From the NCBI RefSeq assembly GCF_023702125.1, contig NZ_CP098415.1, forward strand, positions 2,480,001 through 2,544,000: a stretch of DNA of 64,000 nucleotides, given 5' to 3'. Positions 22,698 through 25,109 of this stretch are shown piece after piece (positions within the stretch are counted from its first letter, which is position 1; every line of letters begins with the position of its first letter). Source of the stretch: Halorubrum hochsteinianum. Its GTDB lineage: Archaea > Halobacteriota > Halobacteria > Halobacteriales > Haloferacaceae. The notes below the pieces were generated by a model. That model had not been told where the DNA came from, did not search any database, and saw nothing but the letters and a program-made list of their open reading frames with translations. The position numbers and the translations under genes were made by a program.

Positions 22698-23558
22698 ATG
22701 TACGGGGTCGTCACGCGCAACGCCGACGAGGTCGAGATGGAGCCGTTCGACCTCGGCTTCTACGAGGTCAAAGACGTCACGGGGCGGTCGGCCGAGCCGC
22801 TGCCGAACGCCGTGAACATGGTGTCGTGTTTCGGCGACAACGCGGCCGCGAGCGAGAACGAGGACCTCGTTCCGGTCGACGAGCGCGGCGAGCCGGCGAC
22901 CCGCGACCGCGACTACTTCGACTGGGCGTATATCTGCCCGACGCACCCAGAGTACCGCGAGGGACTGCTGGAGATCATCGCGGACTGCGCCGTCGAGAAC
23001 GGCGACGTGCGCTTGGACGACGTGGGGTTCCCGCGCGAGGGGTTCTGTCACTGCGACCGCTGCGAGCGCCTGTTCGCCGAGAGCGACCGCGACGAGTTCG
23101 CCGACTGGCGCGCCGACGTCATCTCCGAGTTCGTCGCCGAGGCGGCGGAGCTGGTCCCGGGGCGACTCCTCTTCACCCTGTATCCAGACCCGTATCCCGA
23201 CCACCTCTACGAGCGCGCCGGCCTCGACCTCGACCGCCTCGCGGAGCACGTCGACGAGTTCGTCGTCCCGCTGTACGACATGGAGTACGCGACGACATAC
23301 TGGCTGGAGACGATCGCCCGCGGCTTCCGCTCGCGGCTCGGCGGCGACTACGACCTCCACGGCGCGCCGCCCGAGACGCCGTTCTCGCTGGAGCTGTACG
23401 CGGTCGATGTCGACGTCGACGACCTGATCCACGCGACCGAGGTCGCCGAGACGTACGCGAAGGACGTGTTTTTCGGCTACGACGCGAACAACGCCGCCGC
23501 CGCGGTCCGCCGGAAGGATGCCGACTCGCGCGACGGCGAAGTCCACCGGCCGGAGTGA
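22698..23558 (+). CDS. Conserved protein, possible glycoside hydrolase-like TIM barrel
   Basis: A 286-residue protein. WAYICPTHPEYREGLLEII followed by VGFPREGFCHCDRCERLF resembles the segment of barrel-type glycoside hydrolase-like proteins, in which a CxCxxC cluster follows a beta strand. Later pieces (RLLFTLYPDPYPDHLYERAG, FVVPLYDMEYATTYW) also suit an alternating beta/alpha barrel. Catalytic acids cannot be assigned. A TATA-like gtttttaccg lies about 30 bases before the ATG. It stands alone before a long non-coding stretch. The enzyme idea is low confidence; being a real gene is high confidence. Confidence 0.8.
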   Translation: MYGVVTRNADEVEMEPFDLGFYEVKDVTGRSAEPLPNAVNMVSCFGDNAAASENEDLVPVDERGEPATRDRDYFDWAYICPTHPEYREGLLEIIADCAVENGDVRLDDVGFPREGFCHCDRCERLFAESDRDEFADWRADVISEFVAEAAELVPGRLLFTLYPDPYPDHLYERAGLDLDRLAEHVDEFVVPLYDMEYATTYWLETIARGFRSRLGGDYDLHGAPPETPFSLELYAVDVDVDDLIHATEVAETYAKDVFFGYDANNAAAAVRRKDADSRDGEVHRPE

Positions 23559-23900
23559 CTCGGCCGGACGGGGTGCCGACCGGACCGCCAGCGGCGACGT
23601 GAACGAGGGTTTATATACGGCCGCGGTCGACGCCTACTCGACCGGCCGCCGGCGTGCGACACAAACCGGTCGTCTCGCGTTCGCGTGAGGCGGCCGCCTT
23701 TCAACGTCCGCGCCGTAGCGGCGGTCGCTCTACACCGTTGAGCCGCCGGCTCGTCGGTTTCTTCGGCGCTGTTGGAACCGATACAGCGACGGCGATACTG
23801 TACTTAAACGGAGTGAGTGGCGGCGGCAGTTGCTTATATACCCGAGCGGTGGCGCGTGCCGGTGAGCGGCCGATAGGCCGCGAACCGCACGCGCGAGGTT

Positions 23901-24220
23901 GCCGGCGCTACGCGCCGGCTGCCAGAGGGACCTTCGGTCCCTCGCTGGAGTCGCTGGCCCCGGAGCGAAGCGGAGGGTGCCAGCGACGAGGCTGGGGAGG
24001 TATGAGGAGCGGTCGCGGTGCGGGGCGGGACTCGAAGGGGAAGTCGCGAAGCGGGGGCAGAGGCGACGTAAGCACCGCAGGAGCGAACGGAGTGAGCGAC
24101 GAGGAGCGTGGTTCGAGACGCCTCCGGCGTCTCGTCATCGCCAGAAATCGGGGATTTCTGGCTAGCAGTCAGAACGCTCCGCGTTCTGACGACATCACGA
24201 AAGGCGCTCCGCGCCTTTCG
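23901..24220. repeat. Array of six perfect hairpins with 3-base loops
   Basis: Six perfect inverted repeats with loops of exactly three bases occur here: 23901-23919 (8-bp stem, loop TAC), 23925-23943 (8 bp, TTC), 24114-24134 (9 bp, TCC), 24140-24162 (10 bp, GGG), 24168-24190 (10 bp, TCC) and 24198-24220 (10 bp, TCC). The last four are separated by only 5-7 bases. Stem sequences differ from one another, so these are not copies of one unit. They do not look like intrinsic terminators, as no T-run follows. Confidence 0.9.
23950..24054 (+). repeat. Dispersed structured repeat, copy 1
   Basis: A stem GTCGCTGGC (23950-23958) pairs with GCCAGCGAC (23979-23987) around a loop containing GGAGCGAAGCGGAG. 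It is followed by GAGGCTGGGGAGG, GCGGTGCGGGG, GGGACTCGAAGGGG and AGTCGCGA. All these blocks recur in the same order in copy 2 at 25949-26047 on the other strand, where the stem has a different sequence but still pairs. Confidence 0.88.
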
Positions 24221-24365
24221 AACGACAGCGAGCGTCTGCCCGCCTCGCGGCTGGGGCTTCGGCGGTGTTTGGGTCGATCTACTGTCGGCGACTTATAAGT
24301 AAACGACCGCGGATTCGGAGGACGGTACCGGAGTCCCACGGTTCTCTGTAATCCGTCGAGTCGGA

Positions 24366-25109
24366 TCAGTGAACGGTCCGGTCGTCGTCCGTGTCGATGT
24401 CCTCTCGCGGCTCCGCGTTGCCGAACTCGGGGGTCGGCCCGTCGCCCGGTTCGGCCCACTCGACCGCGTTCCGTAGGACCCGTCGAACGTCCTCGTCGTG
24501 GTAGATCGGGTACGTCTCGTGGCCCGGTCGGAAGTAGAACACCTTGCCGCTCCCGCGGCGGTAACAGCAACCGGAGCGGAACGTCTCGCCGCCCTCGAAC
24601 CAAGAGGTGAAGACGAGCGTGTCGGGCGCGGGAACATCGAATCGCTCCCCGTACATCTCCGCTTCCTCCAGTTCGATGGCCTCGCCGATCCCGTCGGCGA
24701 TCGGGTGGCCCGGCTCGATCGTCCACAGCCGCTCGCGCTCGGCGGCCTCGCGCCACTTCAGCGAACAGCTGGTGCCCATCAGCCGCTTGAATAGCTTCGA
24801 GTAGTGCGCGGAGTGGAGGACGATGAGGCCCATTCCGTCGAGGACGCGCTCGTGAACTCTGTCGACGACCGCGTCGCGCACCTCGTCGTGGGCGGCGTGG
24901 CCCCACCAGACGAGCACGTCCGTCTCGTCGAGAACGTTCTCGGTGAGCCCGTGCTCCGGCCCCTCGTCGAGGGTCGCGGTGCGGACCTCGTGGCCGCCCT
25001 CCCGGAGCGCGTCGGCGACGACGGCGTGGATCCCGTCGGGGTAGATGTCGGCGACGACCTCGCTCTCGCGTTCGTGTCGGTACTCGTTCCAGACCGTGAC
25101 GCGTGCCAT
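24366..25109 (-). CDS. ThuA-like domain protein
   Basis: A 247-residue protein of the ThuA/trehalose-utilisation family, which has a class I glutamine amidotransferase-like fold. Family features are [13 protein letters not shown] and [13 protein letters not shown] at the N-terminus, [52 protein letters not shown] and [18 protein letters not shown]. The role of ThuA proteins is not settled; bacterial members are linked to trehalose or other sugar use. A trehalase is encoded 17 kb away in this window, but there is no operon link. Confidence 0.88.

Follow-up and report, generated by a model that had tools for sequence, protein, structure and literature searches.

The six perfect hairpins with three-base loops found in the window (the whole 64-kb stretch of DNA analysed here) are probably exchangeable modules of small hairpin cassettes, which occur across the haloarchaea and appear to be kept perfect at the DNA level; we infer their transcription, mobility and mechanism from sequence comparison. 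In the window, one C1 cassette and one M3 cassette with a nested M4 lie inside a copy of an abundant structured intergenic repeat.

The array comprises the two hairpins of C1 (23901..23919 and 23925..23943; stems of 8 bp, loops TAC and TTC), the first hairpin of M3 (24114..24134; 9 bp, TCC), the two hairpins of M4 (24140..24162 and 24168..24190; 10 bp each, GGG and TCC) and the second hairpin of M3 (24198..24220; 10 bp, TCC), with no strand assigned to any of them. The coordinates and loops given by an earlier sequence-only reading of this DNA were exact. Perfect loop-3 inverted repeats with stems of at least 8 bp number nine in the 64-kb window, and six of the nine fall within these 320 bp. 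Shuffles under a dinucleotide model yielded 3.3 such stems per 64 kb, which corresponds to about 0.017 expected in 320 bp; the array is thus far denser than composition-matched sequence, and chance clustering was ruled out by these counts. Elsewhere in the same genome, nine 20-kb stretches (180 kb) contained 16 such hairpins against 6.5 expected, a mild excess which indicates that the array is a local feature and not a habit of the whole genome. A genome-wide excess of loop-3 palindromes, just mild in the sampled stretches, was therefore discarded as an explanation. The window is G000:C1:2480001-2544000, part of a haloarchaeal chromosome with Halorubrum-like relatives, and the array in it is intergenic, flanked by a + strand gene that ends at 23558 and a ThuA family gene on the - strand that ends at 24366.

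Among the copies compared, four recurring blocks were recognised and are referred to as C1, C2, M3 and M4. Cassette C1 (23899..23948, +) consists of a GCCGGCGC-TAC hairpin, the linker TGCCA, a GAGGGACC-TTC hairpin and the tail GCTGG; at other sites the same stems and linkers carry other loops, giving the general form GCCGGCGC-NNN, TGCCA, GAGGGACC-NNN, GCTGG. C2 joins TCACGAGAGC and ATCAGAACGC hairpins by GCCA. M3 is composed of TGGTT, a hairpin, TCATCA, a second hairpin and AACGA, while M4, with GCCAGAAATC and GTCAGAACGC hairpins joined by TAGCA, is nested within the TCATCA linker of M3. The composite of M3 and M4 in the window spans 117 nt (24109..24225, +) and reads TGGTT-hairpin-TCATC[hairpin-TAGCA-hairpin-GACATC]A-hairpin-AACGA. 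M3 without M4, with two hairpins and 60 nt, was found in L011, L019, L074 and many other loci. The sequence-only reading had held that the stems are unrelated to each other, so that copying of one unit does not explain them. The first part is correct inside the array, but each stem is a recurring “word” copied exactly elsewhere, so unit copying does account for the stems. Its view that geometry is conserved and sequence is not was half right, since linkers and stem vocabulary are conserved along with the geometry.

The cassettes behave as discrete units, present or absent at orthologous sites and located in unrelated hosts (the core of the repeat, tnpB 3' ends and other intergenic places). The closest relatives, G020 and G006, carry the orthologous element with neither C1 nor M3/M4, and M3/M4 splits the empty-site sequence GAGGAGCG^CAGCGAG at its G^C step with no repeat made. 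C2 occupies a different locus in this genome (G000) and in G016, from which it is cleanly absent in the closest relative G020; the filled and empty sites share a CG of 2 bp at most, hence there is no longer target duplication. Judged from such sequence comparisons, presence and absence could in part reflect loss and not gain. The distance between motifs B and C is 222 nt in the window copy, 103–107 nt in most cassette-free copies and 152–317 nt in longer copies, where the additional length comes from inserted hairpin blocks.

Host stems of at least 6 bp surround the insertion in 6 of 46 contexts, compared with 1.1 in shuffles, and the idea that insertion always takes place at the apex of a host hairpin was rejected, as it holds for this minority. 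An archaeal bulge-helix-bulge intron was set aside by reasoning alone, since its exon-pairing strand would need to differ from host to host, yet the cassette ends are constant. Most of the cassette copies retrieved are located in the core repeat or other places, and some in tnpB 3' ends. In L061:1501-1559, L074:1501-1562 and L210:540-600, cassettes were observed inside or close to the part of IS605 TnpB-like genes that encodes the C-terminus, where they stand near the expected position of the omega RNA. Additionally, M3 occurs near the C-terminus of an open frame resembling a 2'-5' RNA ligase-type protein (L096:1028-1657), and L118:7000-7119 and L191 show two identical M3 copies with N between them, which probably reflect misassembly or tandem duplication.

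The host of the array is one copy of an interspersed structured element (23848..24262, +; core plus inserted cassettes), recognised by BLAST, fixed motif spacing and RNAalifold. Just 5' of the core lies a putative TATA-like box, TTATATA (23834..23840, +). The core contains stem P1 (GCGCGTGC/GCACGCGC; 23852..23894, +), with an inner stem bearing tandem G-A mismatches and pairs that are conserved or covarying in 21 cassette-free copies, and stem P2 (GTCGCTGG...CCAGCGAC; 23950..23987, +), also with covarying pairs. The 3' domain (GGGACTCGAAGGGG...GGCTGGGGCTTCGG; 24027..24262, +) forms a long covarying helix that the cassettes interrupt, as described by covariance model R1, and the hairpin GAGCGAAC-GGA-GTGAGCGAC (24080..24100, +) includes tandem G-A pairs that covary in alignment A1. 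Order and spacing are fixed among copies: P1, P2, a conserved TGGGGAGGYGTGAGG, and the 3' domain from GGGACTCRAAGGGG to GGCTGGGGCTTYGG. A BLAST search of 23560-24400 against 39 genomes returned 29 matches in its own genome and 16–31 in each of the same-genus genomes listed. Model R1, built from 33 copies of the 3' domain, matched 60 of the 87 haloarchaeal genomes sampled (32 of 43 genera); 9 of the 10 same-genus genomes have at least 41 copies each. Core copies are intergenic and have mixed gene contexts. At the 3' end of the repeat, the tail (GGCTGGGGCTTYGGCGGTGTTCG...TTTATAA; 24239-24300, L003, L026 and L029) is often tandem with a period of 51–69 bp, each unit having its own TATA-like box. 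In L027:9586-11313 and its orthologues L218–L233, core copies on both sides point at the gene in most close orthologues.

The sequence of the core element supports its assignment as a structured RNA, on the criteria of covariation and strand-specific folding. RNAalifold on 21 cassette-free copies proposed 61 consensus pairs, of which 30 are changed on both sides. The window copy, folded as RNA, has an MFE of -236.4 (z -5.3), and in 21 of 21 copies the sense strand gives a more stable fold than the antisense strand (means -144 vs -119 kcal/mol). Among pairs predicted on both strands in core copies, G-U exceeds A-C by 21 to 8. Of 51 copies, 15 carry a TATA-like hexamer 16–22 nt 5' of the point where the core begins, where control windows predict 0.75, and the repeat is probably transcribed, as far as sequence can indicate. 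A search of the 64-kb window with Rfam at the gathering threshold gave no matches, the best sub-threshold hits being chance-like, so a known Rfam RNA was rejected as the identity of the core. The host repeat is an undescribed structured intergenic element belonging to no Rfam family. The earlier proposal of a structured non-coding RNA is thus borne out for the host element, with its covarying helices, consistent sense folding and TATA enrichment, and is weaker for the hairpins, whose stems have no G-U excess. Upstream of the repeat, directly 3' of the gene ending at 23558, the segment 23612-23757 (+) is conserved in all aligned same-genus relatives; behind its TATA box (GAGGGTTTATATAC) come about 100 nearly invariant nucleotides (CGACCGGCCGCCGGCGTGCGACAC...CCTTTCAACGTCCGCGCCGTAGCGGCGGTC), and the segment looks like an undescribed small RNA with no Rfam match.

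The stems of the cassettes are about 98–99% Watson-Crick, drawn from a limited recurring vocabulary in which several pairs change together. In 131 distinct M3 modules, a sample biased by a fetch pattern that fixes the basal CGA...TCG of the first hairpin, the stems contain 2356 Watson-Crick pairs, 8 G-U, 16 A-C and 19 of other kinds, and the two hairpin positions are filled by 31 and 36 different stem sequences. Hairpins of C1, C2, M4 and further M3 copies gave 3179 Watson-Crick, 6 G-U, 10 A-C and 15 other pairs. Drift under a pairing constraint should leave RNA helices with an excess of G-U over A-C, which the cassette stems do not have; the scarcity of G-U could alternatively stem from the recent spread of a few ancestral hairpins. 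The loops vary fast yet stay within the GNA/TNC class. Among 530 non-redundant triloop hairpins that are closed by C...G and have stems of at least 8 bp, 171 carry GNA and 193 TNC loops (364 of 530, 69%), while for stems of 1–4 bp the share of these loops is 17.5%. C-G-closed GNA loops belong to a class known for extraordinarily stable DNA mini-hairpins.

These pairing and loop patterns bear directly on a possible, though considerably less favoured, reading in which the cassettes would be functional RNA domains forming three- or five-way junctions (UGGUU, UCAUCA, AACGA) that a protein binds or that the repeat RNA requires for its activity, with stems free in sequence as long as they pair. The conserved linkers, beside variable stems, would fit such a junction, and the host core is clearly RNA-like. 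Furthermore, the loops of the first M3 hairpin in core copies are biased towards the sense strand (GNA 72 : TNC 26), so that strand symmetry of the loops does not hold everywhere; this bias suggests some RNA-level preference or shared ancestry, and it weighs to that extent against a purely DNA-level account. On the other hand, most core copies and the orthologous copies do without cassettes, the stems lack the G-U excess, and outside the core the two loop orientations are equal (GNA 46 : TNC 49). The module also occurs outside the core RNA, as in the TnpB-like frame of L074, which the 60-nt M3 insert leaves open.

Orthologous cassettes were compared where long flanks match. The cassettes at such places are identical, word-swapped, altered at several stem pairs together or fitted with an inverted loop. 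A word swap is seen between CGAGACGCC and CGAGAGAGC with flanks 95–96% identical (L125/L360), and several stem pairs are changed at once between GGTGAGCGC and GGTTCGCGC (L086/L093). With unchanged arms, the loop was the same in 54 distinct cases, differed at one position in 27, at two in 7 and at three without inversion in 6, and was inverted in 4, one of which is AGCGGGACC with TTC/GAA loops (L082/L089). Inverted loops thus form a pattern, though not the prevailing one, and exact inversion as the commonest loop change was rejected for true orthologues (4 distinct inversions vs 27 single differences). The restriction of loops to GNA/TNC would in any case produce some apparent inversions, and the small number of true-orthologue inversions is a point against the explanation we prefer.

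We nevertheless favour the reading of the hairpins as exchangeable modules maintained in DNA. Small mobile or exchanged repeats are indicated by the discreteness of the cassettes, their empty sites, their nesting, their wide distribution and their occurrence in unrelated hosts. The strictness of the arms, the changes of several pairs at once and the way the loops vary speak for upkeep at the DNA level by exchange between copies and template switching. The cassettes may spread as non-autonomous mobile repeats, and copies would trade whole hairpins through gene conversion. In single-stranded DNA, the arms would fold on C(GNA)G triloops, and template switching by a polymerase, or copying from arm to arm, would make the arms identical and could invert the loop. 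Insertion would be tolerated because the modules lengthen loops or junctions of a structured RNA and leave its core helices intact. Template switching has been argued, for hairpins in general, to make and maintain perfect arms and to invert loops (PMC8794818). As in that work, template-switch mutations would account here for perfect arms, simultaneous compensatory changes and inverted loops; the difference is that loop inversions were very rare there (rRNA), whereas here both loop orientations exist, about equally outside the core RNA (PMC8794818). A further step, for which our confidence is low, is that hairpin modules propagate themselves throughout the class with no dedicated transposase, C(GNA)G hairpins being copied, perfected and inserted by template switching in replication or repair while their loops flip. 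If true, hairpins would act as replicating units nested in repeat RNAs.

Movement in trans was also considered, in the form of IS200/IS605-related (PATE- or REPIN-like) cassettes mobilised by a Y1 (HUH) transposase that reads single-stranded hairpins. This origin agrees with the presence of M4 inside an annotated IS605 TnpB gene (L061) and of M3 in the TnpB-like frame of L074, with the one clean empty site, whose target duplication is no longer than about 2 bp, and with the similar behaviour of PATEs and SMRs of Haloquadratum (PMC3119063). We regard it as unlikely. The profile Y1_Tnp (PF01797), found in 13 of the 20 genomes searched, had no match in this genome (G000) or in the same-genus genomes G002, G004 and G005, and the absence of the transposase from this genome counts against current mobilisation of the IS200/IS605 type. 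In addition, comparison of insertion sites gave no common tetranucleotide target beyond G^C, and the hairpins are perfect without a fixed recognition sequence. The sequence-only reading had also proposed DNA hairpins recognised by a processing enzyme; such an enzyme may exist, but this genome has no Y1 (HUH) transposase.

REP/BIME/REPIN and BOX elements of bacteria are likewise intergenic, modular and palindromic and reach tens of copies. The cassettes differ from them in sequence, in host domain and in strict perfection combined with variable triloops, and this genome lacks a Y1/RAYT-type gene. By description, the closest known elements appear to be the SMR-A repeats of Haloquadratum walsbyi (HqIRS42, HqIRS43 and HqIRS55; PMC3119063): they are about 110 bp long, make no target duplication, insert in palindromes of PATEs and IS605-type elements, and were mobilised in a manner called “enigmatic”. 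SMR-A and the cassettes are alike in being short, haloarchaeal, present in many copies, devoid of a transposase and located inside other elements, including those of IS605 type (PMC3119063). The composite cassette measures 117 nt and M3 alone 60 nt, and the lack of target duplication is shared. In contrast, the passages of PMC3119063 considered here describe SMR-A as terminal-inverted-repeat elements of one species, and their description does not include perfect triloop hairpins, interchangeable stems, GNA/TNC loops, nesting or a class-wide distribution. The palindrome-associated transposable elements (PATEs) of Haloquadratum are presented there as transposase-free, interspersed, palindromic targets of smaller repeats, which makes PATE a possible category for the host core by analogy; unlike PATEs as characterised there, the core has an extended covarying RNA structure and is kept at orthologous places across the genus (PMC3119063).

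The cassettes recur widely across haloarchaea. The M3 half-motif GTGGTTCGA...TCGTCAT was present in 190 of 242 haloarchaeal genomes (63 of 74 genera), where reversed-pattern controls were near zero. Throughout the analysis, genomes were sampled and the paralogues counted are not independent. In a whole-phylum draw, 1 of 164 non-haloarchaeal genomes matched, and that match was no hairpin. A scan of 84,980 species placed 79 of the 80 listed loci in haloarchaea or Halobacteriales, the exception being one Acidimicrobiales bin. The C1 half-motif is mostly limited to the genus. This distribution is difficult to reconcile with a separate local origin of each hairpin, through near-palindromes corrected by template switching and without common ancestry of the units, which we consider very improbable. 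Strictly perfect arms fit that origin, and template switching is capable of such correction (PMC8794818), but identical stems and linkers stand at dozens of unrelated loci in most haloarchaeal genera, and the empty sites reveal block insertion. As a complete explanation it is already contradicted, and it survives as a maintenance step alone. The mutational perfecting of near-palindromes suggested by the sequence-only reading accordingly stands in part: it fits the strict Watson-Crick pairing, the stems altered at several pairs together and some of the inverted loops, but the recurrence of the same stems and linkers across genera excludes a process that acts at each site alone. Finally, terminators or 3'-end processing signals of convergent flanking genes are hardly credible, for although the window copy lies between convergent genes, as do 14 of 43 classifiable core copies, 22 copies are tandem and 7 divergent, orthologous intergenic regions do without hairpins, and direct reading found no T-run 3' of the hairpins, as noted before, so that intrinsic terminators were rejected.

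Two undescribed layers are thereby brought together, namely an abundant structured intergenic repeat and a vocabulary of perfect triloop hairpins, shared across the haloarchaea, that would move in and out of it. The cassettes supply an anatomy for mobile repeats whose mobilisation was termed enigmatic in 2011 (PMC3119063). They also touch a question of RNA evolution, whether compensatory stem changes arise at once, by template switching, or stepwise via G-U. With hundreds of homologous hairpins that combine strict arms with variable loops, this question is testable by plain comparison of strains, and the cassettes offer a natural test bed for the origin and spread of perfect hairpins.
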